The position numbers were made by a program, and so were the translations under genes. Positions 19,497-55,217 of a stretch of DNA of 64,000 bases are shown piece by piece; within the stretch, counting starts at the first letter, position 1; each line of letters opens with the position of its first letter. The stretch is taken from contig JAFCMP010000008.1 of assembly GCA_017506865.1 (NCBI GenBank), positions 355,001 through 419,000 on the forward strand, written 5' to 3'. This DNA is from Tribonema minus (lineage: Eukaryota > Sar > Xanthophyceae > Tribonematales > Tribonemataceae). Under the pieces are notes generated by a model that did not search any database, had not been told where the DNA came from, and worked only from the letters and a program-made list of their open reading frames with translations.

Positions 19497-19500
19497 GGTT

Positions 19501-23700: not shown

Positions 23701-24020
23701 GCAGCAACCTCAGCTTCAATGTCAAGCTCCAACTTCAGCTTCAACAACAACTTCAACGACAGCTTCATCAGCTTCGTCAAACACCATCAGCTCAGCTTCA
23801 ACAGCAGCTACAACCGCAGGAATCAAGCGGCGCACACTCAAGTTTCACACGGCAGCACACCGTTCGCACTTGCAGTACACACTGGTGCCTAATCCAGGTT
23901 TTCAAGAGTACACACTGGTTGCTACACCAGTTAGCATGCACACCGTTGCACATCAAGGAGCACACCCGGCTCATACCTGCATGTTTGCATTTCAGTACTT
24001 CAGCACACGGCTTTCGTACT
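23701..24020 (+). other. Copia 3' untranslated region with CTTCAAC repeats
   Basis: 320 bases between the copia stop codon and the polypurine tract. 23700-23815 is built from imperfect CAGCTTCAA/CAACTTCAA words. 23878-23945 holds two related ACACTGGT...CA segments. No coding signal is apparent. Confidence 0.6.
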
Positions 24021-24029
24021 GAGGGAGGG
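24021..24029 (+). other. Polypurine tract of copia element
   Basis: GAGGGAGGG immediately precedes the right LTR, the expected place of the primer for plus-strand DNA synthesis. Confidence 0.85.
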
Positions 24030-24311
24030 TGACGGAGTATGATACCTACATACCCTACTTGCATGTGCATGCATACCTACACAGGTTTCTCCCCATTCTG
24101 GGAGTTTCTCTTGTTCGTCCACCACTGCATGTTCCAGCACCAGTCCGGTACTGTTCCGCCATTGACTCAGGGCTATTTCTCCGCTTGCTCACGCTCCTGC
24201 ACAATAATCACTTCTTTGCAATACCAGCCTGCCCTGGTCTAGTGCTGTTCTGCACTTTGCATTGGGTCCACCTTGGGTGTCCTACTCTGCCACGGTGTTA
24301 TAGTTCCGTCA
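24030..24311 (+). repeat. Right LTR of copia element
   Basis: Direct repeat of 19215-19496. It is followed by CTGAT (24312-24316), after which gypsy integrase coding resumes at 24317. Confidence 0.95.
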
Positions 24312-25424
24312 CTGATGAAAGAGCTAACTAGGTTAGTGGGCATTGAGCAGCGCTTCACATCCCCTTACCACCCTGCATGCAATGGTCTCACTGAGCGCAC
24401 CAACGGCACGCTTGTCAACCTTCTGGCAATGATGGTAGAAGACAATCAGAAGAATTGGGACTCAGTCTTACCCATGGCTCTTTTCAACCACAGAGCTTGC
24501 ACAAACACGACGTATGGCATGTCACCGTTTCGCATGTTATATGGGCGTGAGCCCCTGCTGCCGTTCGAGGCAATGTTGGGAGATCTTCGTGCACCTGAGC
24601 TGTCGCGCAGGTGGAAGTCAGCAGCTGAGCACCTGCACGTAATTCATGAGCTCATCAAGGAAGGACACAGGCTGGTACAGGTGTCACTACAAGAGCAGGA
24701 GGAGAGGCTACGGGCGGCGGCAGCGCAGGAGAAAGGGTTTGCTCGTCGCTTTGAACCTGGAGATCATGTTCTTGTACACTATCCGCCCGTTCGTAAGGGG
24801 CTGAGTAAGAAATTGAAAGCAGAACGCTGGTTGGGTCCATTTGTAGTAGAAAGGCGAATACCTGGGCTAGACACATATGTTTTGCGGGCGACGCATGCAG
24901 GGCAAGTCATGTTGAAGTACATCCACTGTAGTAGGCTGAAGCTGGCTACTGAGCGACAACTTGAAGTAGCGGTGCCGCCTCCACCAGATGTACACTTGCC
25001 TACGCGTGATCAACAGCATGTGCCCCGTGACCCGGCTGACAGGCCATCAGCGGCTGCAGCACCAGCACCACGTGAAAAATGCCCATATGCTAAAGGTGAC
25101 ATCATAAGAGTTTCATTGGCTGCATGGGTAGATGGCTCTGATGATAGTTGTGATGGCTATGTGGTACACATTGCTTCCAATGGCACGGTGGAATTCATAT
25201 GCCCGATTGATGCAGCAGAGCCGGATGAGTTGACGGCTCAGCTGCCCTCATTTGCAAACCGCTATAAAGGTCATGCGACTAAAGGCGACAAGCATCTGGC
25301 ACGTCTCATCTATACACTGCATCATTCGTCACCGTTCCTTGGCGAGCGCACTGGCAGTTTCTGGCAGCCCCTTGCAACAGCACCAGCGGTTCGGTTCTGC
25401 AATACCATAGTATATGTCAATTAG

Positions 25425-26893
25425 AAATATCCAAGTCTTGTTGTTTGGCAGCGTTCCCTACCCCGCGCCTTGCGTGCCGCATGTTTCAGGAGGAGTGTCA
25501 TATGAGGTGAAGACGGAGTCTTGGCGCGCAGCGGCGGGCGTTCTACATGCGCATCTACCGGTGACGAGATATTCAACTCCGTCTTGGCGCGCAGCGGCGG
25601 GCGTTCTACATGCGCATCTACCGGTGACGAGATTTTCAAGCGAAGCACCTTTCAACTTCAACCACCAGCTCAACTTCAGCAAGGGCGCTTCAACTTCAGC
25701 TATTGGCCTAGCGCAAGTGTGAGTGAGTTACCACACGGCGCAGTGCGTGCTCCAGCGAGTTGCTGAGCACTGCCAAGGCAAGGGCAGCCTCAATCAGTCG
25801 CTGAGCGCTGCCCCAGGCCCGGAGGCGGATTGGGGATTAAGCTATTTGGGACGCACTCATGCGAGCTGCTGAGCGCTGTCAACTTAACGGGCCTGGGCGG
25901 ACTAGCGTTGCATAGTATGGCCTAGCTACGTCGTGCAAAGCAAGTTGCTGAGCAGTGCCAAGCGCTTGGGGGCGTACTGCGGGAGTCAGGACGGGCGCGC
26001 ATGCGAGCTGCTGCGCCGCGCGGAGTGTGCGGTGCTCCTCACGTTGCTGAGCACTGCTACGGCTTGGAACAGGGGACGTGGCCATCGTAGCCGCCGACTG
26101 GGGGGGGGGGCGTCATGGGGGGATGGGTCGTCAGCCTGGTTGGTAGCGCGCGGGAACTCGGGCCGTATGCCATGAGACTGACCGCAGCCGAACTTCCAGC
26201 CTCTTTCCTGTAACGTTCAAGGAAACGCGGGGAGAGTAGGCGCCAGGTGTATCGTTTTCTCCAGCAGGTGCATAGTCGCGTCTACCAGCGCGCACCTTAA
26301 GGCACCGCCTACGTTATGGTGACTTTTTAGGGGTTGGGGAGGGGTTATATCCCTATAACAGGGCGTGCATGACACGGGGTGTAGTGGGGGGTTGCGCGAG
26401 TGCCTCAAGCGGGAGCACAGTAGTGTGGGGGTTGCGTGAGTGCCTCAAGCGGGGGCGCAGTAGTGTGGAGTGCTGGTTTGCATCGCAAGTTGTGCGTTTG
26501 TTTGCTAGTGTAGGCAATTACCGGGGCGTATGTAAGTGGTGCAGCCTCTTTGACGGGTGCAGCATTAGAGGCATATAGCCACACACTGGCAGTACTCCCC
26601 TCTGTTATTTCAGTACCATGACGTCAACATATGGTGCTGCTCTGCCGCTGCCGGTGTCGCCGCCACCGTGTAGCCGCAGCCGCCGCCTAGAGGGGTAGTA
26701 TCTGCTTGTGATGCGCAATCAGGTGTTGCAATCGCATCGACAACACTTGGCGCGCAGTAAAGTGGTGCCAGGCGTGCTGTATCTGCTGAGGATTTGCATT
26801 GCTTATTTGCGGTAGGCCGGGCTTGCAGTAGCTCCTTGCACGCTTCACTGTTATTTGATCCAGACGGTCGATGACGTCATGGATGGGGGCGTA
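25425..26893 (+). other. Repeat-rich 3' tail of gypsy element
   Basis: About 1.5 kb between the integrase stop and the right LTR with no long frame. 25518-25580 is repeated in tandem at 25581-25643 (63-bp unit). Between 25755 and 26060, six spaced copies of a word like GTTGCTGAGCACTGCC occur near 25759, 25797, 25864, 25945, 26001 and 26042. 26390-26468 holds two copies of a roughly 44-bp unit containing GAGTGCCTCAAGCGGG. A G-rich stretch, GGATGGGGGC, just before 26894 may be the polypurine tract. Confidence 0.65.
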
Positions 26894-27291
26894 TGTCGTG
26901 AAGCGGCCGCCATTAGCGTGCATTAGGATGATAGATGTGTGTTGGCAGCACGTAGCACGCCTTGAGGTGGCCAGGGCTCAATTGGAGAGTTGTGCCCGTA
27001 TTTGTCAACAGTCACCTCAAGTTGAATGGCAGCAGCGCTCAGCTGCATTTGTGCTTGTGTTCGCCTAATGATCAGAAACCGATCTACATGCTTTAAGGAA
27101 GGCTTTTGTCTGCTTTTGCACCGCCACGTTTACCGGCGCCATGGCACTTGGTATCTGGAGAGAGTAGTTGCAAGCGCCGCTGCTTTCTCAAGGCAACATT
27201 CGCAGGCTTTAGGCTGTAACTGGAGCAATGGAGCAGTTCCTCACTCCTGAAGAGTCAACACTGTGAGCTGGGACACCACCCAGTCACCACA
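26894..27291 (+). repeat. Right LTR of gypsy element
   Basis: Direct repeat of 8361-8758, ending ACCACA at 27291 and followed by the GTCT duplication at 27292-27295. Confidence 0.92.
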
Positions 27292-30200
27292 GTCTGGTCA
27301 AGTGCGTGGACGACCGAGGGCGTCAAGAGGTCCCAAGCCAGGGATGCTCGTGCCTGGGGCTTTGAGGGCCTGCCACTGGTGGTGGTGGTCGGGGGGGGCG
27401 GTGACGCGGCATCGTCCGGCGGGTCCACGTCCATGTCCGCCCATCCCACGGCCGTCCCGTGGGGGGGGCTGCTGTCCTGCAGCCTCAGGCTGTCAGACTG
27501 AGTGCGGCTGCCGGCGCTGCTAGGCGGTGCCGCAGCAGCTGCCGTTCGGCGCCGGCGTTGCGCGCCGGTTGCCGTGGCCGCCGGGCGTTTCTTGCTAGAC
27601 TTTGAGTTGGCAGCGCCACTAGCCGGCACCGCCGGTAGTTTTGGAGGTGTCGCTGCGGCAGCCCCCGCCGCCGCGGCCGCGCCGTCGCTACCCGCACCCC
27701 CGCCCTCGGACTGGCCCGGGGGTACTGCCGGGCGTGCGCGCGTGGGGGCGCTTCCATTCCGTCGACACGTGTGGCATGGCGAGGTCAGCGCGCATTGCCT
27801 CTGCCCCGCGCTGGCTGACATATGGACCAGGCCGCAGGCACCTGTGCATGCACTCAGCTTCCTTACCGCCCGTAGGAAGTCTTCTGCCGTGCAACCATAC
27901 ATGGTGCTCATCTCCTGCACATGCTTGGCATGGTGTGCCCCAGTGCTGCAGGTACTGCTGCCTGAAGGGGCACGGTCACCGGATGGGTCGTGATCAACCT
28001 GCTGCCGGATGCCCTTGGCGTATGCTGCCGCCGGATTTTGCTGACAGTGTGATGTGCTCGCCTCAGGGTTCAGCATCGACCTCGTGCAGCTACCACCGTT
28101 GAAGTGGGCCACTACCGGTGCCATGCGGCTCGCAGCTGACAGTTTGCCTCGCTGTTTGCTGTCCTCTTTCTGACCAAGCTGCCAAAATGCCAGTGTGCAT
28201 AGTGGACACCTCAGTGGCTCAGGCTGCTGTGGCAACTGCAGCGCAGTACGGGGCTGTGTCCGACTCGGAGCCGTGATGTGGGTGCTGTCAGCTTGAGTGG
28301 TCGCCGACGCTGTCATAGTGGTTGGCAAGGGCGGAGCTGCCGCAGGGGCGACAAGCAGTTCAAAGTGTCCCACATTTGTATATAGCCCAGGCGGCGTCCA
28401 CAGCACATCCAGATGGCAGTCAGGCTGAGCTGGAGTCGCCGGTGCGAATACCGCTGGCAGCCCCATCAGTTGTGCCAGCACCAGCCCTGTTGATTTTTGC
28501 GTGCTGCCAGTGGCCTGAGGCTTGGCCTGCCACACCGTCACCGAGACCGCGTAGACCGCTGCAACAATGGCCCACACAGACAAACCGAGGGGCCGTCCCC
28601 ACACGCCCTCTTCCTGTAGGCGTTGCAGCAGGAGCGTGTGCCCGCTGTCCTTGCTGTCCGTTTCATTTGTGCCGTACTCGATTGCGAGGCAGCGAGCGCG
28701 TGTCCCGTACGTGTCGAATTGTTCACGTGTACACGCAGGTTGGGCTGCGGCATGCGCGGTCAGTTGACGCATCGATGACATGCTGGCCCCTTGTTTGCCC
28801 GCCCCCTGCGTGACGTATGCCACCATCCCGTCCAGCAGTGCCTCTCGCATGGCAATCACCAGCGCTGGGGCCGGCAGTCCGTGCTCAACTGCGACGCTGC
28901 CTATGCCGTGTAGAGCTGTATGAATCAGGCAGTTGCCGTTGCCCACGTTGCTCACGGGGCGAAGCTCCCCACCACGTGCTAGCGTCGCTGTGTTTTCCCC
29001 AAGCGCCTGTTTGTGGAGTGCCTGCAGGCCCGTGTGCCAAGTGGAAAAACCATAGTTGGTGGCTTTTGCCAGCGCGTCTTGCTGCTCCTCCACGGTGACT
29101 GTATGGCACACGGTTGAGGGTATCCGGGTCGCCACCGTCACGGTGGTGACCTTCGCCGGCCCGGATATTGGTGCTGAGGGGGCAGAGGCACCGCCCCTTG
29201 GCGGTGTGGTGGCTGGTGCCAGCTGCCCTAGGGGTGCAGGAGAATTGTCGCACTGGGCCTGTCGCTCCTGCGTCCGCCGTCTGTGTTTACCTCTGCGTCG
29301 ACTGCGCTTTCCACTGGCAACCATAGCCGTGACAGATGCTGTCTCGGTGATTGTTGCGTGGGTGCTGTTATCACCGGCCTGCGTTACGTCTGACTCGCCA
29401 TGTTTCCCGGCTGGCTGGCGAGGCGACCTGGCAACGACCGGTTCCCTAAGGGAGAGTTGGTCAAACACCGCTGCCAGGTCGTTACCCTCTTCTCGGAGGG
29501 AGAGCAAGCCGAACGTGACCGTCAGGTCATGCATCTGATTCACCAGCGGTGCGCAGGGAGTCCGGCCCAGCAGGGTCTGTGTTGCTGGCGCGTGCAGTCG
29601 GCGTGACGTGCGGCAGGGTTCAAGCTTGGTACCCGTCGGCCAAGCGCAAAGCACCGTGACGCGTGCCCGATTGGGGGCAAGGGCCAGTGCACGTACCCTG
29701 CGCGCGAGTGCGCCAGCCGCCCCCAGCAAGCCTTGCCAGTGAGATCCCGTCGGGTCCCTGGGGCATTCGCTAGACTGAGCGCCCGCTGCGACAGCAGCTG
29801 CTGCACTGCCAGGTGTGCTGGGCACACGATCGTTGCTTGACATCGTTGCGCCGCTATCGCTAGCACGACTTTCGCCAGGCAGCACACCCATTGTGCTGCT
29901 CCGGGTCAGTCTCGGCAGCGGCGCAACTGCCACACCGTCCAACGTAGATGCATGGGCTTGCCTGGGGTCCACCCCCAGGTGCTCGCATCCGAGGATTTTG
30001 CGTATGGGACCACATTTGCTAGCGGCGGCGAGCAGCGCGGCTGTTGGCTTCAGGCTATTCCCCCCACCAACAGCTGCACCACCCGCTGCCGCCGCGCATG
30101 TCGTTGGTCGGGTGTGTATGTCAGCAATGTGATCATGGCCTGATGCACGGTCACAGCCTGACAGTGTGTATGCTGTCGCGGCGACCGGGCCTGCGAGGCA

Positions 30201-32225
30201 GTCGGCGCAGCGCCACACGTCGCACTGGTCCAGGGCCCCTAGATCACCAGATGGTGTCGTGGCGCTTGCTGCTGTGCGTTTGATGAAGAGGTTGCCGCAC
30301 CCATCGCAGACCTGCTCCAGGCCGCCGCATATTGGTCGGTGGTCTAGGAAAAGCTGAACATGCAGTTCTGCAAATTGCTTCCCTTTCCCTGTGTGGCGCG
30401 TGCGCTGGTGTGCACATGCGTGTGCCGCTGGGCAATTCTTGTCCAGGGCGCGAGGATTTGCTCGCACTATGAACTTGTCGCACATGCGGCAGTCCAGCCC
30501 CGTGATATTGACCTTCCGGTTGGCAGCGTGTATCTTGGCGGGCGCCAGATCTGTCCTAGCGGTGATGCCGGATATTGGGTGCCCGTTGCGACTGTTACCG
30601 TCAGAGGTGACGCTGCCGCCTGACAGAGAGGCGCCGCTGCCAGCTGGCTGCAAAGACCGGGACGTGATTTGTCTCTGGTGACCCGCCGGCCCAGGTTCGC
30701 CAACTTCCATCGGTACAGGCATGGTCACGGTGACCGGCTTTGCCAGCGCACCGCCAGACTGTGGCTCTGGGCGGGTGACGCTGCCAGTGCTTTGGGCGCT
30801 GGCGCGGCGCCGACCCCGCCGGGGTGCAGCCGCCCCACGTTCGCCGCCCGGTGCAGCAGCGGCCGCTGGTGCTGTTGTCACCATGTCTGCAGCACATGGG
30901 GTTGCCGCTGCGGTGACCTCCATCGGCTGAGGACCGGGATGCCACTGGGGAGAGGCGCCGCTGCTAGCTGGCTGCGAAGGCCGCGACGTGATCCGTCTCT
31001 GGTGACCCGCTGGCCCACTGGTAGGTTCGCCAACTTCCATCGGTACGGGCACGGTCATGGTGACCGCCTTTGCCAGCGCACTCAGTTTGCCACACGGCGA
31101 CTCTGGGCGGTTGATGCTGCCAATGCTTCCGAGGCGGCCCAGGGGCGGCCCAGCGTTGGCGCCGCGGCGCCGACCCCGCCGGGATGCAGCTGCCCCGCGT
31201 TGGCCATCTGATGCGGCAGCGGCTGCCGGTGGTTTTGGCACCATGTCTGCCGCACGTGGCGTTGCCGCCGCCGTTAAGTCGGAGGTAACCTTGCGACGGC
31301 ATGCAGCGGCGGCTGTGACAGTCGTCCGTGGCTGTGCAACCACCGGGTTGGCCGGTGCGGGCCCCGCCGCTGGTGCGGCAGTGGCAGCCGTCACTAAAGG
31401 CGTTTTCCGCCGCGATCGTCGTTTTGGCATTGGCGTTGTCGCTACTGGTGGATCCGGCGGCAGTGTCGCCCGACGGCGTGTACTTGCCGCTGGTGGCGGT
31501 AGTACCACCAAGCTCAGTACAATTATCGCTGTTGGCGGCAGTGCCTCCCGTAAACTCGCCGCTTGAGACTCCGAGTCACTGGCAGGCTGATGCCGCGGGC
31601 GCTTCGTCTGTGAGCATCCCCTGTTACAGTGATTACTGGCACCTGGGCTGGTCAGATGGCGGCGGCGCTTCTTGACGTGCGCATGGCTGCCACTGCCCTG
31701 AGGCTCGTCCGAGTCGGCTGACGACAAGTGTAGTCTGCGCATGCTTCTGCACAGCTCTGCAACCTGACTGCACACTGGCACCTCTGGCATCGGCCGCGGT
31801 CTAGAGCTCTGGGCCATCAGCTGAGGTGGTGGCGGGCCGGGTATCGGCGGCGGGCCCGGAATCGGTGGCGGACCCGGGATCGGCGGCGGGCCCGGTATCG
31901 GTGGCGGGCCCGGTATCGGCGGCGGGCCCGGTATCGGCGGGGGGCCCGGTATCGGCGGCGGGCCCGGGATCGGCGGCGGGCCCGAAATCGGCGGCGGGCC
32001 CGGGATTGGCGGCGGGCCCGGGATCGGTGGCGGCGGCGGTATCGCTAGGCGTACCCAACGGCCAACACCATGGCGGCGTCTGCGGCGTGCGTCAGATTGG
32101 CGTGCAGCTTTGACCTGCCACCACCACAAGCCAGTATTCAGCCCGTGGTTGCGCTGTCCCCGTTTGCGTTTCAGAGGTGACCCCTCCCCATGTGAGGTAG
32201 GGCTGGTAAGCCAGTGGAGGGCCAT
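27292..32225 (-). CDS. N-terminal half of OTU-bearing non-LTR retrotransposon protein
   Basis: The frame is open from upstream. I start at ATG 32225 because codons before it translate a poly-A tract (32255-32278) into Phe and the upstream start is only GTG. The first 100-150 residues include a Lys/Arg-rich stretch, then a PPPIPG repeat. A long Ala/Pro/Ser-rich region with duplicated RRGRRR segments follows. A Cys/His cluster (CRMCDKF ... CAHQRTRH ... CDGCGNLF ... CADC) lies near 30170-30500. An OTU cysteine-protease domain follows: NGNCLIHT with the nucleophile Cys near 28925-28945 and GHFELL with the His near 28356-28376. Two more Cys/His clusters (CPLCTLAF; CHTCRRNG) follow. The protein then runs into RT at 8356 once the gypsy insertion is removed. 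Known: OTU domains cleave ubiquitin-like chains, and some non-LTR retrotransposons carry them. The current frame ends in LTR sequence at 27255. Confidence 0.75.
31838..32042 (-). repeat. 18-bp tandem repeat encoding PPPIPG
   Basis: About a dozen in-frame copies of an 18-base unit (on the plus strand close to GGCGGCGGGCCCGGTATC) encode (PPPIPG)n near the N-terminus of the OTU-bearing retrotransposon protein. Units differ by a few third-position changes and one unit reads PPPISG. Confidence 0.9.
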
Positions 32226-33962
32226 AGCTTTGAAAGGCGACTTTGAGGGGCGAGAAAAAAAAAAAAAAAAAAAAAAAACCCAGGCTCGATCTCGAAAGCG
32301 CGGCTGCCTACCGCGAACATGTCCCTGCACAGCTATACCACTTCCAGTTCAAGATCACACCCTGCTCTGGTGTATCTGGTGAGGTGCTTTTCCCGCCGTC
32401 GTGAAACGAGCGGTGGTGGAACGAGTCGGTGTGCTCAAGCTCTCTGCCTCTGACCAACACAAGGCAGCTAGGTTGAATGCAATGCTGTGCAATTCGTGTC
32501 CTTGCCGCTGCAGTGTCGTGATCCTGTCGTGTCTGTGCGTGTGCTGAATGCAGTCAGTCTCTGCCAGGCGAGGTCCCTTGTGCGGCTGCAAATCAAGCTG
32601 GTCAGCAAGCGTTCAAACCTTAATCTGGTGAACTGCTATCTACTGTCCTGCGATCCAGTGTGCCCTAGGTTCCCCCTTCCCGATCCGTCGACGGCGATAT
32701 CGTCTGATGTTTTCTTTTTTTTTTTTTTTTAGTTTGCCCTTCTTGTGCTTCGGCCGATGTCGCTGTGTGCGTAGGTAGCTTTAGCAAAATCAATGCGAGG
32801 CTTACTTGCTGTCACCGGCGACCCACGCTGCGTGTCTGGCCTTGTTCGCCGCAGGCCCGCGGTGGAGCGAAATCCGCTCTCTAGTCCTCGGGCTGTAGCC
32901 AGGCTGGCAGGTTGAGCGTGCGGTGCTGCTGTGCCCTCAGTGTCCCCTGTGCATCCTCGCCTTCCGCGCCGCCGCTCCGCCAGCGGCTCCTCCTAACCTT
33001 GCGTCCTTGTCCATGCCCTTTGTGTACGTTAGTACTCAGGTCTCCCTGAGATTAAATCACCCTACCCCACCTTTTCGCTTTTTACCTACTGCACGCGCGA
33101 GCGATCTGACAGCTGGTATCAGGTCGGTCTGCTCTAGAAACCTTGTGACGCGAGCGGCGTCAAGCGCCGTGCTGTAGCCACGGTCCATGCAGCAAGTGGT
33201 GAAGCTGCCTGCTGCACCACTGCGCGTCTCATCTCAGTGTGTGTCAGGCGCAGTCTGTGTGAGAGTGCGCTGGCGAGATTTTGAGGATTAAGGGGCCCCC
33301 CCGGGCGGGTCAAGGGGCCTGTTGGCCAACTTCGGGGATCGGATCGCGCTGGTTGGCCAACGTTGCACTGCAATCAATCACACAGCACTTTCATGTATGT
33401 TTGTGGACGACAGCAGGGCTGCTTTTTGTTTTTGTTTTTGTAAATTTTCTTCTTGGGGATTATCCCCCAGAACTTTAAGTTACTTTAGCGACAACACATG
33501 GCTGGACGGTCACTTTTTTGAAGTACAGCACGCGGGGGTGTGTGTAATCGGCAGGTGCTGTTCACCACGCATTTTCCGATGTCCATGTTCATAGACGAAG
33601 GAAATGGCTGCTTTACAATATTCAACATAAACACAACGGTGAACTGATTAATTCCGAAGTAATTTCACCAGTACCTAGTCTGGCAGTAGACGAATCAAGT
33701 TCCCTGCTGCCGCACCATGACCGTTAGGAGTCTCCTCTCAGACATCTATCTCCTCTCGACATCTATGTGCAGATCTGGTCGTCAGGCGCAGTCTGTGAGA
33801 CCATGTCTGCGTGCGATGCCCCCCCCCCCGCCCCGGCCCGGAGGGGGGGAAGGGGGGGCAAACCTGGCATAGTATAGTTAGGCCCCCGCATAGCACATCT
33901 GACTTCAGGGGGGCTAACCTTTTGAGCTGCCGCTGCGCCGGCCAGGCGCATCGCGCAGCATT
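32226..33962. other. Region between non-LTR element and methyltransferase-integrase gene
   Basis: No gene recognised. Landmarks: A24 at 32255-32278; T16 at 32715-32730; TGGTATCAGG at 33114-33123, a word like the primer-binding site for initiator-Met tRNA, three bases after ...GATCTGACA; two copies of the palindrome GTTGGCCAAC near 33323 and 33352; two copies of GTCAGGCGCAGTCTGTG near 33246 and 33781; G/C runs at 33820-33860. Part of this is likely the 5' LTR or leader of the element encoding the protein at 33963, but I could not find a matching right LTR. Confidence 0.4.
33114..33123 (+). other. Primer-binding-site-like word before methyltransferase-integrase gene
   Basis: TGGTATCAGG resembles the initiator-Met tRNA primer-binding site (TGGTATCAG...) used by many plant-type LTR elements. 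It is preceded by ...CTGACA, which could be an LTR end. No second LTR copy was found, so the call is weak. Confidence 0.35.
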
Positions 33963-36900
33963 ATGCAGCCAGCCACCTTTGCCGACTTGGGCTGTGGCAT
34001 CGGCGGCGCCACGGAGGGCGCCGCTGGCTACATGCGCCCCATCATCGCCGTGGAGCTCGACCAACGCACACTAGATGTGTACTCGCAGCGCTTCCCCACG
34101 GTGCCCACCATCTGCGCCGACCTTGCCTCGGAGGAGGTTTACCGTTTCCTACGCGTACGCTCTGTCTACGCCTTGGTACATGGCAGCAACTGCCAGCCCT
34201 ACTCCGCCGCCGGCCCGCGCATCGAAGGACCACTCGCCATCTCCACACTCGACTACGGCCGCCTGCAGCTACGGTGCCGGCCCGTGCTCGGCATCTTGGA
34301 GAACGTGCCCCCTTTTCTCAGCAGTGCCACCTTCCGCGCGTACCGCGACATGCTTCTCAGCGGCGGCTACGACATCGGCATATACACGTTAGACGCAGCG
34401 GCTCTTGGCGCCGCCACTGTACGCCGCCGCGTCTACGTTGTGTCACTGCAACGCAGTGAGCGCTCTGGGTCGCGCCTCATGCTACTGGACCAGTGCATTC
34501 GCGATTGCCACCAGCAGCCGCGCCGCCTCACCGTCCACGACGTCCTGCCCAGCCAGCCGGACGCCTACGTCTACATGTCCCGCTACCCCGCCGGCGCTTG
34601 CATCTTGGATGCTCACGCGCCCGCGCCCACTCTTCTAGCGCGCATCGCTCAGCGCCTGCCGGCCAACTACGTGCCGCGCGCCGGCGATGCCTGCGCACCT
34701 TCTGAGGCTCATACTTTGAGCTTCAGCGACATGCTGCGCATTCAGGGCATGGAGCCTATTTTGCCGCCACTGCCCCTCCCCCGCGCTTTGGAGGGACGCC
34801 TGGCCGCCAACGCCATCCTGCCCATTCACATGAAGACCCTCTCTAGCTGCCTGGCCATGGTAGGAGCGCTGGACTTACTGCCCGTCTCCACGATCATCCC
34901 TGGCCGCCTCATTTGCGCGCCGACTCGCGCCAAGGCCCACATGGCATCAGGAGCTGTTCAGTTTGACCGCGCAGCGCTCAACAGCGCCGCGCTTGTCATC
35001 GCTCCAAACCCTCTGGTGCCCAACACTAGGGTTCTTCGCAGCGCCGCCAAGCCCGCTGCCACCGCTACCACTTCCGCCGCGGCTGATGCAACTGCCAGCG
35101 CCGCCACTTCTTCCGCCGGCGCTAGCGCCGATGTTGAAGTTGGCGTGCAGTCAGCCGCCCTTGGCACCACTGACGCAGCCGTCAGCGCCGCCGCTTCGCC
35201 CGCCGGCGCCAGCCCCGACGTTGAAGTTAGCACGCAGCCGGCCGTCCTTGGCACCGCCGGCGCCGATGGCGTCGGCCGCTCCGCCAGCGCTTCTGAGCCC
35301 GCTGCCGCCGCCGACCCTGCCTCTTCGCCAGCCCCATCAGACAGCAGCAGCGCGCCCATGCCGTCCGCTGCCGCCTCTAGCGTCGCAGACGCTGGCGGCG
35401 CGGACTTCATCAACGACGCGGACTTCACCGCCTCAGCGGAAGGCGACGGCGACTCCAGCGCGCCCGCAAGCTACTCCAGCCTGCCTGGCCTTACGTTAGA
35501 GCGCCTTCGCGAACTTCAAGCCGCTGACGCCGCCGCCGGCCCCATACTGCGACAGCTCGCCGGCGACTCTACTGCTCAGTCATCTGCCGCCGGTGACGCT
35601 CCCACTTCTGCCACCGCCGAACTCGCCAACTACCGTCTCAGTGACGATGGCGTATTATTCCGCGTGGACATGGAGCAGTCACCAGTGTACAGCAACGACA
35701 GGGAGCGCGTTACTCTCTTTGTGCCTCAGGTTTTGGTCTCCACAGTGCTCACCGCCACCCACGACAACCACGTCTCCGGCGGCCACATGGGCGCGGAGGT
35801 CACGCTGCGCCGCGTTCGCGCCAAGTACTACTGGCCCACGCACCGCGCCGACGTATTGCGCTGGTGCGACACGTGCATTACGTGTCAGCGCACCAAGACC
35901 CTCCACCGCAAGGCGCAACTCCCCTCCGGCACGCTCAACACTACACTGGAGCCGCGCCAAGGCCTCCACATCGACCGTATGGGCCCCTTTCAACCGTCCG
36001 CTGATGGCAGCCTATACGTGTGCGCACTGGTGGACCCCTGCACGCGCTTCCGCGTCAACACCGGCATACCAGGCAAGGCGCCCCGCCACGTCGCTCAGCG
36101 CATCGTGGACTACTGGGTGGCCTACTTTGGCGTGCCGCGGTACCTGCACTCGGACCAAGGTACGGAGTTCGTCAATGACGTCATTCGCGAGCTTTGCGAC
36201 CTGCTCGGCATCGACCAGACCACCACCACGCCGTACCGCCCCCAGGCCAACGCCATCGTGGAGCACGGCAACGACGTACTCGGCAACATGATGCGCGTAC
36301 ACGCCCTGCGTCACCCTCAGCATTGGGACCGGCTACTGTTCGCGCACTCCCTCGCCGCCAACACCGCGTACCGCCGCTCGATCTTTGAGTCGCCATTCTT
36401 CCTCCACATGGGCTTTCACCCGCGTCTTCCCATCGACATCATCTTGGGCGAGCCCGCGCCGCCTACTTCCAGCGACTACCGCCGCGAGCTTCAGTCAACA
36501 CTGCAGGAGGCATACGAGCTGCTACGCCGCAACAGCGAGGCCCTACAATGCCGCCTTGACGCTGACGCCGCTGCGCTCGACATACCTACCTACTCAGTTG
36601 GCGACCGCGTCTGGGTGGCCGCCGTACCGGACCCCAAAATCGCCGTCGCGCCCAAGCTTCAGTCGGACTGGGCAGGCCCTTTTGAGGTGCTGCGCGTCAT
36701 CAACCCCATATGTGTTGAAGTACGCATGTCCGCCAACGCTACCACCGGCACGCGCTTCCACATCGCGCACGTCCGCCGCTACGCTGACGGCGAGCGCCCA
36801 TCGCCGCTCACGGAGAGCGACTTTGTCTACATGGGCCGCCCCCTACTCACGGTTCACGCGCCACGCGCGCCTGGCCGCACCGACGGCGCCGACGCCGACG

Positions 36901-37136
36901 TCGCCTGTACGTTGGACCCGTCCGTCGCCGTCGAGGCCACCGTGGCGCGCAAGCCTGGGCGTGGACGTGCCGCCGACGGCAACCAAGTCTACCAAGTCCG
37001 CTACTTCGGCGACCTCAGCGGCACTGACTGGCTCAGCCGTCGTCACCTCATCAACCGTGGCCTTCACGACATGGTCACCGCGTTCGACACGCGTTTCGCG
37101 CTTCCCGAGCCCATCAACCTCGACACCCGCGCCTGA
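33963..37136 (+). CDS. DNA cytosine-5 methyltransferase fused to gypsy-type integrase
   Basis: 1057 codons, ATG at 33963, no interruption. Residues 1-300 form a complete C5 methyltransferase: FADLGCGIGGATEG (motif I, 6-19), VELDQRT (II), SNCQPYSAAG with candidate nucleophile Cys77 (IV), ILENVP (111-116), ATVRRRVYVV (151-160), and LRIQGME with LAANAILP (IX-X, 258-288). Residues about 355-505 are Ala/Ser/Pro-rich. Integrase follows: leader LERLRELQAADA, zinc finger HDNHVSGGHMG ... CDTCITCQRTK (near 600-645), then catalytic D, D and E in LHIDRMGPF, HSDQGTEF and NAIVEHGN with 35 residues between the last two. A GPF motif (DWAGPFEVLRV) and a chromo-like tail (YQVRYFGDLSGTDWL) end it. No protease, RT or RNase H. 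Known: cytosine methyltransferases have been reported inside LTR retrotransposons of some algae and dinoflagellates. Inferred: RT-less derivative or captured fusion. The motif IV PPC is SNC here, so activity needs testing. Confidence 0.85.
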   Translation: MQPATFADLGCGIGGATEGAAGYMRPIIAVELDQRTLDVYSQRFPTVPTICADLASEEVYRFLRVRSVYALVHGSNCQPYSAAGPRIEGPLAISTLDYGRLQLRCRPVLGILENVPPFLSSATFRAYRDMLLSGGYDIGIYTLDAAALGAATVRRRVYVVSLQRSERSGSRLMLLDQCIRDCHQQPRRLTVHDVLPSQPDAYVYMSRYPAGACILDAHAPAPTLLARIAQRLPANYVPRAGDACAPSEAHTLSFSDMLRIQGMEPILPPLPLPRALEGRLAANAILPIHMKTLSSCLAMVGALDLLPVSTIIPGRLICAPTRAKAHMASGAVQFDRAALNSAALVIAPNPLVPNTRVLRSAAKPAATATTSAAADATASAATSSAGASADVEVGVQSAALGTTDAAVSAAASPAGASPDVEVSTQPAVLGTAGADGVGRSASASEPAAAADPASSPAPSDSSSAPMPSAAASSVADAGGADFINDADFTASAEGDGDSSAPASYSSLPGLTLERLRELQAADAAAGPILRQLAGDSTAQSSAAGDAPTSATAELANYRLSDDGVLFRVDMEQSPVYSNDRERVTLFVPQVLVSTVLTATHDNHVSGGHMGAEVTLRRVRAKYYWPTHRADVLRWCDTCITCQRTKTLHRKAQLPSGTLNTTLEPRQGLHIDRMGPFQPSADGSLYVCALVDPCTRFRVNTGIPGKAPRHVAQRIVDYWVAYFGVPRYLHSDQGTEFVNDVIRELCDLLGIDQTTTTPYRPQANAIVEHGNDVLGNMMRVHALRHPQHWDRLLFAHSLAANTAYRRSIFESPFFLHMGFHPRLPIDIILGEPAPPTSSDYRRELQSTLQEAYELLRRNSEALQCRLDADAAALDIPTYSVGDRVWVAAVPDPKIAVAPKLQSDWAGPFEVLRVINPICVEVRMSANATTGTRFHIAHVRRYADGERPSPLTESDFVYMGRPLLTVHAPRAPGRTDGADADVACTLDPSVAVEATVARKPGRGRAADGNQVYQVRYFGDLSGTDWLSRRHLINRGLHDMVTAFDTRFALPEPINLDTRA

Positions 37137-37943
37137 GCCAAGAACTTCAAGAGGCGTTGGAGGGGGGCGTCGCCGCGCACGCGCTAAGTACATGCCGCAC
37201 TCCGCCGCATGTCTGTTGTTTTGCACTCCATGTGCAATGTAGTGTGTCGCGCGCCGCGCGCGCGCGCGTTTCATACAGCTTGGCTGTTCAATGTTAGCAG
37301 CATCGCCGCCCTATTGGCCGCTTTGCGTACATGCAGCTTTTGCTGTTAGGTGTCAGCAGCATCGCCGCCCTATTGGCCGCTTTGCAATGTGGTGCTATTG
37401 TGACACCATTTGAGTAACTATAAGGGAGGGGGGAGCATATTCTTGTGATGCACCACGTTCACACTGGTGTTATCACAGGTACATCAAGGGGGGTATGTGG
37501 GAATCTGCCCCTTTATCCGCCCCACAACTTCATCTTTCAACTTCCGTAACTGCCATCTACCGTTGGTACAGTTGCCCACCACGAGGCCCACTACTTTGGC
37601 ACCCTTGGTGTGGTGTAACTGCCACCTATGATTGGTTAGTTGTCTACCAATCAGGCCCACCACTCTGGCCCTGGGTGTGCCCACACTGGCTCTCTAAGTT
37701 GCCAACTGTTGGCAGCAGCTCTCCTCTGCTCCCTTGCAATGCAATCACTCTTAACCTGCAACACGACAGTGTCAGACTTTGCAACCCTGCCCTGCCTTGC
37801 CAACCTGGAGTCAACAAGTGGCCTGCTGTTTTTCACCTACAGCTGAGTGTGGGCTGACCTACAACTGGTCTGGCCATCACACACTCTGTGTTTTGGGGCT
37901 TAAAACAGCCTACCCCACAAATTCGAAGTGGTTGCACGTGGTT
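37137..37943. other. 3' flank of methyltransferase-integrase gene with short repeats
   Basis: A purine-rich GGAGGGGGGCG at 37158-37170 could be a polypurine tract. A CG alternating run lies at 37251-37268. A 30-base segment, AGCAGCATCGCC...GGCCGCTTTGC, occurs at about 37298 and again at about 37352. Two imperfect roughly 67-bp units (about 37549-37615 and 37616-37683) share AACTGCCAYCTAYC and GGCCCACYACTYTGG. No long frame or right LTR was recognised. Confidence 0.45.
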
Positions 37944-40167
37944 TATCAATCAAAAAGCGGTGGCTAAAGTGCTGGAACGATTGCAGGCGGCAGATTTTTA
38001 CGATGGAGCAGCAGCAGCAACTTGGTAAGCGTCCGCATTGCGTTCATTTTCATACTTGTAACATTCTCACTTCACAACGAGCGACACACACACACAGCAG
38101 GCTCTGTCAATGCGGATTGCTCGTCATGAACATGTCATTCTCGCTGCGAGGCTGGAATGGACACACTAAGAGGCTGGAATGGACATATTTATAAGTTGAA
38201 GTGTTGACAATGAAATTTAAAAATATTCTCCATATGAGACACAACCGCCTACTTCGGGCATGTGCAAGTCGCGCTTGCTCGCTCGATGCTATCGTAAAGC
38301 AAGGGCATTGTCGCCAGCTGGTGCCTTCTTTGGCGAGCGGGCCACCTGCATGCTTTTAAGCAGGGTGGAAAGCTGTTCGAACTCTGGCGGTAGCACCTGT
38401 AGATGCCAAGCCTTTTATGATCTGGCACAGTTACAAAGTCCAATACCCAGGATCAGAAGCAGAACTCACCTGCCCCAGAGGTCAGTGCTGCAGGCGCACT
38501 GCGCAACTGCAACTGAGCAGAACGATAATGATACTTTGCTGCTTTGTCCGGGCATGCACTTTGGCTCCGAGTGGAGCTGGCTGTAGTACATTCGGTTGCA
38601 TGTAAAACCAGGCTCTGCTCCAGTGAAAACTGCTGCCACAGCCCGCCAGCGCTGCAAGTTCAACATCAGTCATACCTTTAGACATGCGTGTACCCGCGTT
38701 AGTGACTAGCCACATGTGGATGCATGTTCATCCCTGTGCACTTGCCTCGTTCAGTGACGTGCAAAAGGAAGCCACGCGCACAAGGCCGCGCTGCTCTGCA
38801 CTAAATATACACTGCAGTCAATATTTTCAGACCAACCTTTTGTCGCTGGCCACGGTCGAGTGCGCAGTCAAGGGCATCTTGATTTGGGTGTACGCGTCAG
38901 ATTGTCAGCAACGAGCCCCTGTGCCATGCACTCATATGCGTATTGGCCACTTTGCATGAAATCATTGATTGGTTGTCACCACTCTGCGTGGTGCCATTGC
39001 CCTCCCTTCGCCGGCGTGCGCACATGAATTACTGTTGATGCGGACCGAAGCCTCACTTTGCTGAATGCCCTGGAAGAGCCGTTAGTGCGCGGCACCTACA
39101 TCGATCGGCGTAGTGTTTGAACTTCACCCGCATCTGGGGGTGCCGCCATTTATGTTCATGTCCCATCAGACATGGACCGCTTCATGTGCTGTCACCATCG
39201 AGTTGCAGTATCAAGAAAGCCCTTTCTCTCTGTCCGTACAGGTGCGGATGCGTGGGCCCGCGTCTTTGAGTTCCTGGGCCCTGCAGGCCGCTTTCTTCAA
39301 CTGCCATCAGTGAGCCGCGAGTGGCGCGCCCTGTATGCAGCAGCGCTCAACGATCATCATCAGCAGCAGCAGCCACAGCCACAGCCGCAGCAGCAGCAGC
39401 AGCAGCAGCAGCATGCCTCAACCGCCATACACCTCATGGCCGCCTCCGCACCGCTCCTGCGGTGGGCATTTGCCAACGGCTGCCCTAAGAGCAGGCACAT
39501 GCTTGGCCACATTGCCAACGCCGGCGGCAGCCTCGACGCCGCCAAGTGCGCGCGCGCCGCCGGCTGCGGGTGGGGTGAGGTGATACTCCATGCCGCCATG
39601 CGCGTTCGCCTGGACATGTTGGAGTGGGCGTGCGCAGGCGGTTACCTAGTGACCCCCGCCATTGCCAATATGGCCGCCACGACGGCCATCATGCACGGGC
39701 ACATCGCCGTCTTGAAGTGGGCGCGCGGCAACGGCGCCATGCTCACCCAGTTCCACTGCGATTTCGCTGCGATGCACGGGCACCTGGCGTGCCTGCAGTG
39801 GCTGCGCGCGGAGGGCACTGACTGGGACGCTACCACTTGCACTCTTGCAGCGCGAGGCGGCCACCTAGCAACGCTGCAGTGGGCGCGAGCGAACGGCGCG
39901 CCGTGGAATGCTCATACGTGCGCACAGGCGGCAGGGGGGGGGCACCTGGAGCTGCTGCAGTGGGCACGGCTCAACGGCGCACCCTGGGATGCGCATACGT
40001 GCTTGGATGCCAGCCGAGGAGGGCATCTATATGTGCTCAAGTGGGCACGGGAGCAGGGGTGTCCGTGGGTGCCCGGACAGTGCCTGGCCGCCACCACCTC
40101 AGCCGAAGTTCGCGAGTATATTGTGGCCACAAGCGATTATGTGCCCCTCGCACATCAGGTCCCTTAG
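37944..40167. repeat. Right arm of inverted gene duplication
   Basis: Diverged reverse complement of 1967-4256; includes about 59 bases upstream of the ATG at 38003, both exons and parts of the intron. Confidence 0.75.
38003..40167 (+). CDS. F-box-like/ankyrin-repeat protein, right paralogue (2 exons)
   Basis: Exon 1 is 38003-38024 (ATG then Gln-rich MEQQQQL plus one base). GTAAG starts the intron at 38025, CAG ends it at 39241, and exon 2 runs 39242-40167. The join makes a Gly codon and continues ADAWARVFEFLGPAGRF, the F-box-like motif, then PSVSREWRALY. A CAG-encoded Gln/Pro stretch follows (39356-39413), then about nine ankyrin-type units such as GHLELLQWARLNGAPWDAHT. Both splice sites match those of the left paralogue, although the exon 1 lengths (22 versus 25 nt) and the Gln tracts differ. 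Likely an adaptor that recruits a protein to an SCF-type ubiquitin ligase, by family analogy only. The unspliced frame starting 39172 would give a different N-terminus, not shared with the paralogue. Confidence 0.78.
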
Positions 40168-45811: not shown

Positions 45812-45823
45812 GCAATTGAAGTT
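45812..45823. repeat. GCAATTGAAGTT target duplication, left copy (non-LTR copy 2)
   Basis: The 12-base word GCAATTGAAGTT occurs here and at 50915-50926, exactly flanking the truncated non-LTR copy. Confidence 0.8.
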
Positions 45824-45886
45824 GTATATTATGTCCTGGACCGCATGGGCTGCGCGCACGATAAATCGGGCTTGCAATAACTAAAT

Positions 45887-48800
45887 CTACGGAGGGGCCG
45901 GCGGTTCGGCGCTGGCCGGCGAGGGCCGCGGCACTTGCAACAGTGCGATGCGGCGGTAAGCGCTGACGTCGCCATCAGGGGCAATGACTGCGTTCCAGTT
46001 GTCGATCACGACACGTGTGAGCGCGCGCTGTAGCGCGAGGGAGGTGCGGCGGCGCCAGAAGGCAACGCGCTGCGCGAGATTGTAGCTGCCCTGCGAGCTC
46101 TGCTCGGCGAGTGCGTGTAGCAGCGCTTGGGTGTCGCGTGACATAGCGCCGAAGTGGTCAAAGGCTGCGGAAAATAGGGTGTGTGTAGTGGGGTCCAGGG
46201 CCAATGAGACTACGCATGTGTCTATCTTTTCCTGCGAAGCCGATTCTAGCACGCGCTGCACATCGCGCGCGCCCCCCTGAGCCTGACGGAGGCGGGAGGG
46301 ACATGAGCTGTCACGTATGGTGACGTCTACGCAACAAGCTACTTCAAAGCCGCCGCGCAGTTTAGTGCACCGGCCTGCTGCTACCGCGTCGGCGCTCGGC
46401 TGCACTTTAGGGACTGGAAGGCAGATCTGGTTGCTGCCAAAGACGATGTCCATGAACTTGTTGAACCCGTGGCGCGCCGCGTAGCGGCGGAAGGGGGCAA
46501 GGGTGTCCCGGTCGAGACCGCGGAGGTGGGCCACCTGCTTGAGCAGCTGAAAGAGCGCGTCTGCGAGCAAGTTGTGTCGCGTGACGTTAAGCCCTTGTGT
46601 GCAGCGGCGCAGGTGGGCACCCGAGTCCACTGGTTTATGGCACTTGGGGCACCGCGCCGCAGCGGGGGCGGGGCGCTCCACGCCCAGGTGGCGCCGCAGC
46701 GTCTCGCGGAATTCCGGCGGGGACATGGTCTCCGCTGGGTCAGTGCTCGGCAGTTGCGCCAAGAAACCCATGGCCCCCTTAGAGGCGCCGCTGCGCCACG
46801 CCGCGACTGCTTCCAACGCATCTGCTGCTTCAAGCTGACGCAGCTGCGTGGCGGCGAGCGCTGCGTCTAGCAACCGTGATAGCGCCGCTTGACGCCGCGG
46901 CAGCACGGCGGCCGGCGGGGCCTGGGCAGAGCCTGGCTCGCGCGCCACCGCTGGCGCAGCAGCGCGGTGCGCGCCGGCGCGAGTCCGCATGCCCGGCCCC
47001 GCAGCTCCGCCTGCCCGTTGTAGCAGATCGCGCAGCGCCCGCCACGCGCCGTCGTCCTGGCGCCGGTCCTGGTACCAGACCGAGGGCAGGAGCAGTGCGA
47101 GGGCCGATGCAGCATCGTCGCTGCCGCTGCGCAGCTGCTGCAGGCAGGTAGCTATCTGCGTGAAGGTGAAGCCGTAGCGGGCGTGCTGCAGGATGCGGCT
47201 GCGTGCCGGGGCTGGAAACGCCGCCAGTGCCGGTTCCATGCACTCGAGGGTACGTGCAGCAAATGCGGCACATGCACGCGGCGCTGCGCCCAGCACGCCA
47301 AAGCCACCGCTCCCCAGCCGCAGATGCACGCGTACTTGCTGGTGTGCTGGTAGCGTCACTGGGGCCCCGCCACCCCAGTCGGCGCCGCGTACCCATGCCA
47401 CTGCCGCCGCCCACGGAGAGGGCGGCGCCGCCGTCGCCGCAACCGCCGGCGGGCCGCGGCGATCGTCAGCAGCCGCCGGCGCGCCCCCGTGGGCCGGCGG
47501 CGCGCCCTCGTGGGCCGGCGGCGTAAGACCCGCCGATGGTTCCTGCGCCAGCGCGGCCACGGCCGCTTGCGTGACGGCGTCGAAGCGCTGTAGCTCCTCG
47601 TGCGTGAGGGATGGCGCCGTGTTGCGCGCGACATGCCCTGCGCAGGCGGGGACGGCAAGACGCAGAATGGAGAAGGCAGCCTGCACATCCTCCATCTGCA
47701 CCAGCTCCGCCACCAGGCGGTCGGTGCTGGGGGCACGAAGAGTCGCCGCTACGTGTGCGCGCACGAACTCCTCGGTGCCGACCGCCACCTCCCATCGTCC
47801 CGTATATTATAAAATTGAAGCGTGATGCCGTCGTCGCATACTGGTACGGGGACATTGGCGGCGGCGAAGATGGCAGCGGCGCGCTCGCGAGCGCCGCCTG
47901 AGGCCGGCACCAGCGCCGCGCATTTCGTGACGTTGACCTGAATGTTTAGCTCGCTCAGCGCCTGTTGTATGAAGCAGAACGCGCGACCGACGTGGCCGAG
48001 CACTGACGCGTCAAAGCTGGGCGTCATGATGGTGAGGTCATCGAGGTAGCCCGGAAGCGCCAGCTGCGGGAACTTGGCGCGGGCAGCCACCATGGTGCCG
48101 CGCAGTGCCAGCGCGAACAGCAGCGGCCCCAATGGGTCGCCCTGCTGCACGCCCTGTTGGGAGAGGATGATGGCGGCGTCGGCGTGCCCATCTAGGCCAA
48201 ATTGCAGCCAATGGGCCCGGCCGGGGCCGTAGATGTGCTCGACGTAGCCGTACAGGTCAGGCAGATGCTCGGCCACCGCGGTGAGGACTGCCGAGCGCGA
48301 CAGCGCGTTGAAGGCATTACTGCCGTCAATGGCAAGGAGCACGCCGCCGCACTCATGCGTGAGCTGCGCCATGAGCGCCACTCTCTCTGCGCCCCCCCGC
48401 GCGTCGACCCCAAACTGGCCAATTGGTTCCAGCAGCGCGGAGACGCGGTCCCGGGTGTCCGTGCAGAAGGTGCGGGCGAACAGGTGGCGGATGGTGTCGC
48501 CGCACGCGATGGGGCGCGCCTTCTCGCCCACAGCGCTGAGGCGCGCGGCCGCGTGAAGGCGCCAAAAGGGGGCGGGCAGCGCGGCGGGGGTGGAGTACAC
48601 CGCGGTACCCAGCCACGCCAGCAGCTCAAGGAGCCAGTCAACCGTGCGCCCCGACGCGTGCGCCGTGTGCCGAACGCACTGCTGGAGGTGGGAGTTGCGC
48701 AGCCCAGAGGGACCGGCGGCCGAGCCAGGGTTGGCGGCGAGGATGGCCTCGCGCAGCCCGTCCGCCGTGAACGAAACGCCGTTGAGTGGTGCTGCCGCTG

Positions 48801-50098
48801 CCAGCGCCGACGCCGCCACCGAGCTGCGCGCTCGCGTTGCCGCGGCATCCAGCTTCGCAGACGCGTCGCCGGCTGGGTGTTTAGCCCTGCAGTTTATGCA
48901 AGGTAGCGGAGTCGCGGGGGGCAGATGTGTCAGCACCCTCCGCCAGCAGCCGCGCGGCGCGCCCGACGCCGCCCGGCTGCCGCGCCGTCGCCGCCGCGCG
49001 CTCCCGCACTGCCGCCGCCGCCTCCGTCATAGATCTAGCGCGGCGCGCGCACGCACGGGCGGCGCCGCGGCGGCAGAAGGCCAGCGCTGTGTGCGTGAGC
49101 AGGTCCAGGTCGCCTGCCACAAAGGCCGCAAAACGGTGCGCCCGCGGCAGGGAGCCGTCGGGTACAAGCAGCAGGCACGGCAGCAGATGCAGCAGCTTGC
49201 ACCATGCACCGGCTGTGGCGGACGCCTGTGCCGCTGCCTCAACCCCGTGTGCCTGCACTACCGCCGTCTGCGCTTCCCGGAGGCCCGCCAGCGCGGCCGT
49301 CAAGGCGGCTGTGAAGTCCGAGCGGTGCTCCAGGCGAATGCGGCGGCCGACCACCAGTTGCTGCTGCAGAACATAGTCAAAGGAGAGGTCGTCAAGCGCT
49401 GCGCGCGCGGGCGAGAGCGGCGCTAGCGTCCAGAGCGGAAGCGCGCTGCGCCATGTTGGCCCTGCCGCAGCCACAGCGGCAGCTGCGCGGGCGCCGGGGC
49501 CGCGCGCGCCGCCGCTGGCTGTAGAGAGGGGGAGGATGGGGGGCAGAGGCGCGACGCGGGGCCCGTGTGGCCGCTGCGTTGCGGCCGCCCCCCGGGACTT
49601 GTAGAGGTGGTCGCGCTGGTGCAATTTCGTGCGCACGCACCCGGGCTCGCCGCACGAGGCGCATGCGCAGAGTAGCAGCTCGGGTTCCACGGCGTAGTAG
49701 GTGCCCGCGCCGGCTCGGTGGAGAGTCAAACACTCGTCGTCGATCGCCTGCATACGCGCGAGAAAGTCGGCAGGCACATTCGGATGCTCGCGGCGCTGGT
49801 GATCCGCCAGCGTCGTGGGGATGCGGCGCGCCAGCGCCAGCGACGCCGACGTCTGCGCCGTGAGCGTGTGCGCCTCCCCGTTCCGGCGGAGGCGCGGTTT
49901 GGGCACTGGCACCCGAAAGAGGCAGCCAGTGTCATGTAAAGGGCAGCGCGGATAGATGGCAGCCGTTGCAGGCTGAGCGGGCGCCTGCACTGCCTCAGGC
50001 TGCGCAGGGTCTACGCCCGCCGCGGCAGCCGCTGCTGCAGCAGCAGCTGCCGCAATGGCCGCCGGTGCGGCTCCCCCTGAAGTAGAGTCAGACATCAT
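45887..50098 (-). pseudogene. pol: ORF2 of non-LTR copy 2: RT with zinc cluster and RLE-like end (broken)
   Basis: Starts at ATG 50098 and ends at 45887. Compared with copy 1 it has an extra C in the CCC run at about 48884-48887 and about 23 extra bases near 47790-47818, each shifting the frame. Segments: N-terminal Cys/His fingers (CPLHDTGC ... CACASCGEPGC); RT motifs GPSGLRNSHL, AIDGSNAFNAL, QQGDPLGPLL and YLDDL (about 48032-48051); C-terminal CPKCHKPVDSGAHLRRC followed by RHNLLADAL and CCVDVTIRDSS, the layout of a zinc cluster plus restriction-like endonuclease. Known: this layout belongs to site-specific non-LTR elements of the R2/CRE type. The lesions make this copy inactive. Confidence 0.8.
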
Positions 50099-50131
50099 TA
50101 CGATGGATGAGGGGAGCGCCGCACCGGCGGC

Positions 50132-50914: not shown

Positions 50915-50926
50915 AATTGAAGTTGT
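50915..50926. repeat. GCAATTGAAGTT target duplication, right copy (non-LTR copy 2)
   Basis: Second copy of the word at 45812-45823. Only 10 bases separate it from the left target duplication of copy 1 at 50937. Confidence 0.8.
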
Positions 50927-50936
50927 AGTTAGGATC

Positions 50937-50950
50937 GCGGTTGAAGTTGT
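50937..50950. repeat. TCGCGGTTGAAGTT target duplication, left copy (non-LTR copy 1)
   Basis: This 14-base word recurs at 57927-57940, exactly flanking the near full-length copy 1. Confidence 0.85.
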
Positions 50951-51008
50951 ATATTATGTCCTGGACCGCATGTGGGTTGAGCACACGATAATCGGGCGAT
51001 AACTAAAT

Positions 51009-55186: not shown

Positions 55187-55217
55187 TACGATGAATGAGG
55201 GGAGCGCCGCACCGGCG

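Follow-up and report, generated by a model that had tools for sequence, protein, structure and literature searches.

A methyltransferase–integrase reading frame in Tribonema minus, very probably the 3' part of Pol from a truncated Ty3/Gypsy-type retrotransposon

A 64,000-nucleotide stretch of Tribonema minus DNA (the window, G000:C8:355001-419000) contains an open frame, P0001, in which a C5-cytosine DNA methyltransferase (DNMT) domain is joined to a Gypsy integrase, and the locus raises the question of how these two domains came to share one frame with no reverse transcriptase (RT) beside them. A preliminary description, made from the letters of the window, proposed an RT-less fusion that could be a domesticated or non-autonomous element. 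We searched the 158.18-Mb assembly from which the window comes (G000) and conclude, with a probability of roughly 95%, that P0001 represents the 3' portion of Pol in a Ty3/Gypsy-type long terminal repeat (LTR) retrotransposon, seen here as a truncated copy. Domain order, LTRs, target-site duplications (TSDs), further copies and the truncation were all observed and form the basis of this conclusion.

P0001 lies at 33963-37136 on the forward strand and encodes 1057 amino acids in the order DNMT, linker and integrase; its reported length and continuity were confirmed. A frame of this size exceeds chance expectation, as the longest open run in 100 simulated 64-kb sequences, built on the dinucleotide make-up of the P0001 frame, was 658 codons. 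Pfam matched DNA_methylase at residues 5-167 (E 4.3e-15), Integrase_H2C2 at 587-646 and rve at 664-760, with a SH3_Tf2-1 match under the database's cut-off. The DNMT domain occupies residues 1-320 (33963-34922, forward strand) and is followed by an Ala/Ser/Pro-rich linker (34923-35490, forward strand) that contains an 87-bp tandem duplication at 35083-35256; Pfam gave no match in the linker region 34953-35800. The integrase (residues 587-940; 35721-36782, forward strand) has an H2C2 zinc finger, a DDE core and a GPF/SH3-like region, and matches the Ty3 and foamy-virus integrases. All of its expected residues (H600, H608, C638, C641, D671, D731, E767 and the GPF motif) were found, as first described, and GPF recurs in six of eight other copies, the remaining two having no aligned sequence at that site. 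The chromo-like tail of the preliminary description, which in a chromovirus would be a C-terminal chromodomain, was not recovered: Pfam reported no match for it at E<=5, and no chromodomain was present among the PDB sequence matches.

The methyltransferase motifs were examined by alignment and by structure prediction. C77, within GSNCQPYS, occupies the column of the catalytic Cys in alignments with C5-methyltransferases from bacteria and phages, and motifs I, IV, VI, VIII, IX and X could all be aligned to those enzymes. Invariant columns in a five-sequence alignment include G12, G14, G15, D53, G74, C77, ENV113-115, R154, R156 and N283; with 34 sequences, C77, ENV, R154 and R156 showed no variation and G12 and N283 very little. 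The features expected of an active C5-methyltransferase (catalytic Cys, ENV, RxR and the motif X Asn) are all present. An AlphaFold2 model of residues 1-330 had a mean predicted local distance difference test score (pLDDT) of 80.5, and the 50 matches listed by Foldseek against the PDB were all C5-methyltransferases or complexes containing one. The motif set and its candidate Cys77 were borne out by Pfam, alignment and AlphaFold2, with the caveat that motif IV reads NCQ rather than PCQ, both in the window and in all eight further genomic copies compared. Such a reading is uncommon: among 72 relatives from viral contigs, 67 have PCQ, one has VCS and four gave no hit to the motif pattern, a sample that is biased because one of the two patterns in the scan that found it was PCQ/NCQ. 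Judged by their residues, both catalytic centres of P0001 look intact. No relative was found by scanning viral contigs with the whole of P0001 or with its integrase, or prokaryote genomes with its DNMT.

Evidence that P0001 belongs to a larger polyprotein came from other copies of the family. A protein search of the genome gave at least 48 matches (43 scored of 13,676 candidates), several of them copies about 98% identical. Besides the window, three copies, each 98% identical, span residues 1-1057 or 2-1057; no stop interrupts C96 or C35, and C509 has one TAG. Flanking sequence was fetched for six of the copies that are about 98% identical (C96, C35, C509, C224, C334 and C401). In each of the six, an LTR of 423-424 bp lies 5-7 kb before the DNMT and matches the window 3' LTR over 424-427 columns, and tblastn placed RT and RNase H immediately before the DNMT, with 95-100% identity to those of C224 (which necessarily matches itself at 100%). 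Pfam confirmed RT-RNase H upstream of the integrase in two copies. C334 has RVT_1 (1462-1623), RNaseH (1715-1831) and DNA_methylase (1888-2050) in one open frame, and the C224 frame continues without a break from RNase H to the DNMT.

The termini of these copies are those of an LTR element. Direct LTR pairs, 98.8-99.5% identical within a pair, were found in C96, C35, C509, C224 and C334, with ends TGTGGG...CCCACA except that the C509 3' LTR ends in CCCATA. Three of the five are flanked by 4-bp TSDs (ACAG, TGTG and GCTG), and the remaining two sit within TA repeats. Scoring of 40 of the 52 candidates gave at least 27 genomic matches to the LTR, window included, with an identity of 97% or higher across 417 bp or more. 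The copies, LTRs and TSDs that the preliminary description proposed to look for thus exist in the family, the window copy itself having a 3' LTR only. A more distant relative, C112 (42-45% identical), has the same order of RT-RNase H, DNMT and integrase, in separate frames. As a separate observation, G000:C15 and C122 contain two regions (L109-L112) that match each other at 97-100% across about 19 kb; each encodes an integrase about 82% identical to that of P0001, with no RT or DNMT match within 10 kb upstream.

The window copy occupies 33927-37919 on the forward strand. Its similarity to the six other copies starts at 33927 and, for five of them, extends to about 37919. The intact 424-bp 3' LTR (37496-37919, forward strand), with ends TGTGGG...CCCACA, is 97-99% identical to the 5' LTRs of the six copies, and a polypurine tract, AAGGGGGGTA, lies directly before it (37485-37495, forward strand; limits approximate). 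Upstream, at 33021-33926, is an unrelated repeat of about 0.9 kb (repeat X, no strand assigned), which is not part of the element and ends at the truncation point; its right end is common, within a few bases, to 30 other scored genomic matches. With a 200-base query over 33926/33927, one of 40 scored matches (from 52 candidates), the window itself, spanned the junction, while nine covered the Gypsy side alone and 30 the repeat X side alone. The missing 5' part was found neither in the window, queried with pieces of C96, C35 and C224, nor in the neighbouring 10 kb on the left, queried with C224. Since similarity starts at 33927, the junction is confined to the window and the missing part is not nearby, the copy is 5'-truncated, and the absence of RT is due to this truncation of a single copy. 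The statement that RT and RNase H are lacking therefore holds for the window copy and fails for the element. The truncation may have arisen by deletion or together with insertion of repeat X. Two features near the junction were dismissed: a primer-binding-site-like sequence, TGGTATCAG, at 33114 falls within repeat X, and a 19-bp resemblance between 33052 and 37900 scored under the best shuffle.

An assembly error at G000:C8:388926, such that the site really holds a full element or none, is the alternative that survives best and is still improbable. Repeats lie on both sides of the junction, which was found in the window alone; on the other hand, the break coincides precisely with the end of repeat X, which is what an insertion or deletion boundary would give. 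Such an error would leave the assignment of P0001 unchanged, because the frame would still belong to an RT-bearing Pol. We had also considered an internal deletion of RT from between the DNMT and the integrase, because a second Gypsy element in the window (element A, below) has a DNMT-like domain upstream of RT; this was ruled out, as the genomic copies have RT upstream of the DNMT.

Domestication as a host gene, or an RT-less non-autonomous element, is less probable still. The protein alone would then target methylation through its integrase or chromatin-reader part, much as plant chromomethylases combine a chromodomain with a DNMT. In its favour, the 1057-residue frame is intact with both catalytic centres, and the ratio of nonsynonymous to synonymous change (dN/dS) is low in some pairs: 0.25-0.30 over the whole frame (0.23-0.46 over the DNMT) for the window against C96, C35 or C257. 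The family is, however, multicopy and bounded by LTRs, where a domesticated gene would be expected at one host locus lacking element termini; the RT-less junction appeared once among the 40 scored matches, and the searches of Pfam and PDB sequences described above found no chromodomain. Full-length copies with RT between the two domains had been named in advance as a test of an RT-less fusion; in substance that test went against the fusion, because the longer copies do contain RT, located in all six checked ahead of the DNMT rather than between the domains, and the proposal of a domesticated or RT-less element was not supported. A Ginger-type cut-and-paste transposon with an acquired DNMT is hardly credible: Ginger1 (PMC2836005) does, as here, encode an integrase of Gypsy-like type that includes GPF within one frame, and it has terminal inverted repeats of 40-270 bp, whereas no inverted pair of 40 bp or more occurs in 24000-46000 and the other P0001 copies carry LTRs and RT.

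Several observations weigh against P0001 as part of the Pol of an active, methylating Ty3/Gypsy-type element. The NCQ motif makes the activity of its DNMT uncertain. Pfam did not identify gag or protease in the P0001 family, and copies are damaged, for example by stops in C509 and C57 and by a frame change inside the RT of C96. The selection analysis proposed earlier gave the low ratios cited above in three window pairs, which also count in favour of the retrotransposon reading, but it is noisy, because pairs that include the window have 0-3 synonymous differences in the DNMT; dN/dS was 0.52 (window–C509) and 0.46 (window–C57) and rose to 0.81 (window–C224), 0.80 (window–C168) and 4.9 (C96–C35). 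Taken together, the ratios fit constraint during the active life of the family and are uninformative on selection at the window copy. Finally, CpG observed/expected is 1.18 in the P0001 frame and 1.04-1.10 in three stretches of two copies; CpG is undepleted and so bears no mark of long-term self-methylation.

In its longer copies the Ty3/Gypsy-type element that includes P0001 is ordered LTR, upstream region, RT-RNase H-DNMT-linker-integrase, polypurine tract and LTR. Judged from its parts, it would move by reverse transcription and integrase, leaving 4-bp TSDs. The window copy has lost all sequence upstream of the DNMT, and what is left resembles a stand-alone fusion gene because an ATG stands where the DNMT domain starts. 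By analogy with what has been proposed for other retrotransposon DNMTs (PMC5890265), the DNMT may be an active cytosine methyltransferase that acts on the element's own complementary DNA or on the new insertion, and the full element may, as first suggested, couple integration with cytosine methylation.

The second Gypsy element, element A (8361-27291, forward strand), has identical 398-bp LTRs (8361-8758 and 26894-27291) and the TSD GTCT. Its open frame at 14447-18745 encodes a DNMT-like domain, then RT, then RNase H. The DNMT-like domain (14447-15400, forward strand), upstream of RT, is without the catalytic loop. A profile built from eight enzymes of bacteria and phages gave it 26.3 bits, where the top score among 1000 shuffles was 6.5, and with a profile of 53 viral-contig proteins the values were 19.0 and 4.6; blastp against P0001 gave E 1e-5 without composition correction. 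Other searches were less clear. Pfam DNA_methylase was not reported at E<=5, a phage search gave four matches, all at E 0.6 or worse and one of them a methyltransferase, and in the PDB an unrelated protein of the cell wall ranked first (E 0.014), ahead of DNMT2 (E 0.05). The AlphaFold2 model (mean pLDDT 65.2) had DNMT2 as its best fold match, which is not independent evidence as the input alignment consisted of DNMTs. A related copy, C190 (one locus examined), has DLGAGIGS, TRCEGAS and ENV in one frame, and element A lacks about 25 residues of its catalytic stretch, Cys included; this comparison is the best support for the element A domain being DNMT-derived. At least 16 copies of the domain, window included, are 100% identical over 318 residues, and at least 11 more are 98-100% identical. 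The frame of the window copy is broken close to nine consecutive G, a break that is not general, because other copies have frames of up to 3455 residues.

Further observations concern the structure of element A. It is split by a Copia element (19215-24311) with identical 282-bp LTRs and the 5-bp TSD CTGAT, and its presumed gag frame contains an exact 427-bp tandem duplication (10245-11097). Element A in turn appears to split a unit resembling a long interspersed nuclear element (LINE), at 27255-32330 and 4435-8268 on the reverse strand. This unit has a 1691-residue frame without a Pfam match, in which a proline-rich repeat and an OTU-like stretch were recognized by eye, and a sub-threshold RT match in 6715-8268.

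DNMT domains are abundant elsewhere in the assembly. At least 123 matches to PF00145 were found (123 scored of 378 candidates, the window's own match not being listed), 88 of these in frames no shorter than 1000 residues; for 48 the frame reaches 2000 or more. Five further loci, in addition to C112, were viewed in 4.5-kb stretches. In C66 a weak protease match (E 9e-4) is followed by the DNMT and then RT; in C89 the DNMT precedes a weak protease match (E 1.2e-4), an order shared by C4 and C23 with protease at merely E 0.05-0.09; and in C101 the DNMT alone was seen. The protease matches of C66, C89, C4 and C23 are all under Pfam's cut-offs. A tree of 39 DNMTs paired P0001 with C112 (100/100) and C101 with C66 (100/100), and split P0001, C112, C89, C23, C4 and element A from the rest (95/98), the place of element A being unsure because of its very long branch. 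A pairing of P0001 with element A in the first tree (SH-aLRT 84, long branches) was replaced once more members from the genome were added. Separately, two DNMT genes, L105 and L106 (G000:C223:937874 and C223:702740; frames of 390 and 367 residues), have PCVGLS at motif IV and are perhaps host enzymes.

The DNMT was seen at three positions: after RNase H and ahead of the integrase, after a weakly matched protease with RT following, and ahead of a protease that is likewise weakly matched. We tentatively suggest, at somewhat less than even odds, that Gypsy-type elements of this genome carry non-Dnmt3 DNMTs at three or more Pol positions and that the recently amplified loop-less family uses the fold as a non-catalytic module. 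In the element A family the fold would serve in DNA or chromatin binding, for instance. If true, the genome would offer a natural experiment on why retrotransposons need a methyltransferase.

The remaining features of the window lie apart from these elements. A GC-rich 5.1-kb tandem pair (45816-50915 and 50941-56044; 92% identical) has an RT-like frame. Two inverted paralogous ankyrin-repeat genes (1967-4255, reverse strand; 37945-40167, forward strand), with an F-box-like start recognized by eye and 76-88% identical in matched blocks, flank the nested elements. Searches of the window for tRNAs and Rfam families gave no match.

An intact two-domain frame can, as here, be a truncated polyprotein. 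Of greater importance than the single P0001 fusion are the DNMT-bearing retrotransposons across the genome, where several families with the DNMT at differing Pol positions stand beside a high-copy loop-less family and its Cys-keeping relative, and where methylation at insertions of loop-bearing and loop-less families could be compared within one organism. In the literature found, retrotransposon DNMTs come from dinoflagellates and charophytes, and their benefit to the element is unsettled.

Compared with known systems, P0001 shares its fold and motifs with C5-methyltransferases such as prophage 3g7u, HaeIII, HhaI, DNMT2 and the HindV type, and differs from such bacterial, phage and DNMT2-like enzymes in its low identity to them (about 20-30%), in NCQ for PCQ and in being part of a polyprotein. 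Dnmt3 enzymes read PCN at motif IV, and no DNMT3 chain appeared among the eight PDB sequence matches or the 50 listed fold matches of P0001. Among open-licence PMC papers, searched by listings and the openings of abstracts, we found no report of the DNMT-Pol architectures seen here; DNMT3 in LTR Copia and DIRS elements is mentioned elsewhere, together with orphan DNMTs (PMC12344493), and the literature found also includes PMC9998398. The closest system is KnitGypsy-Dnmt3 (PMC5890265) of the charophyte Klebsormidium nitens, which likewise has a cytosine methyltransferase within a Gypsy Pol frame and several copies, with conserved key residues and low Ka/Ks. Its repeats are DIRS-like and its DNMT is Dnmt3-related, whereas the P0001 family has ordinary direct LTRs of about 424 bp and several DNMT positions coexist in the genome. 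The host also differs: its genome has 92 matches to light-harvesting proteins, and the one antenna protein examined, best matched by long multi-domain LHCI chains and, of those with a single domain, by ACPI and CAC chains (cryptophyte chlorophyll a/c proteins), is not of charophyte type, which makes the host an alga and probably no charophyte. The same paper reports de novo CG methylation by retrotransposon DNMTs, and the SymbioDIRS-Dnmt3 and SymbioLINE-Dnmt elements of Symbiodinium resemble the present case in that many retrotransposon DNMTs, with distinct domain orders, coexist in one algal genome; those are DIRS elements (tyrosine recombinase) and LINEs, whereas the P0001 family is an LTR element with a DDE integrase. 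With Ty3/Gypsy elements in general the family shares LTRs, the RT-RNase H-integrase order, 4-bp TSDs, a polypurine tract and an HHCC-DDE-GPF integrase, and it differs from them in the DNMT of about 320 amino acids, with its linker, between RNase H and integrase. The P0001 element is thus of a known kind, a relative of the DNMT-bearing Gypsy elements already described, with new features.

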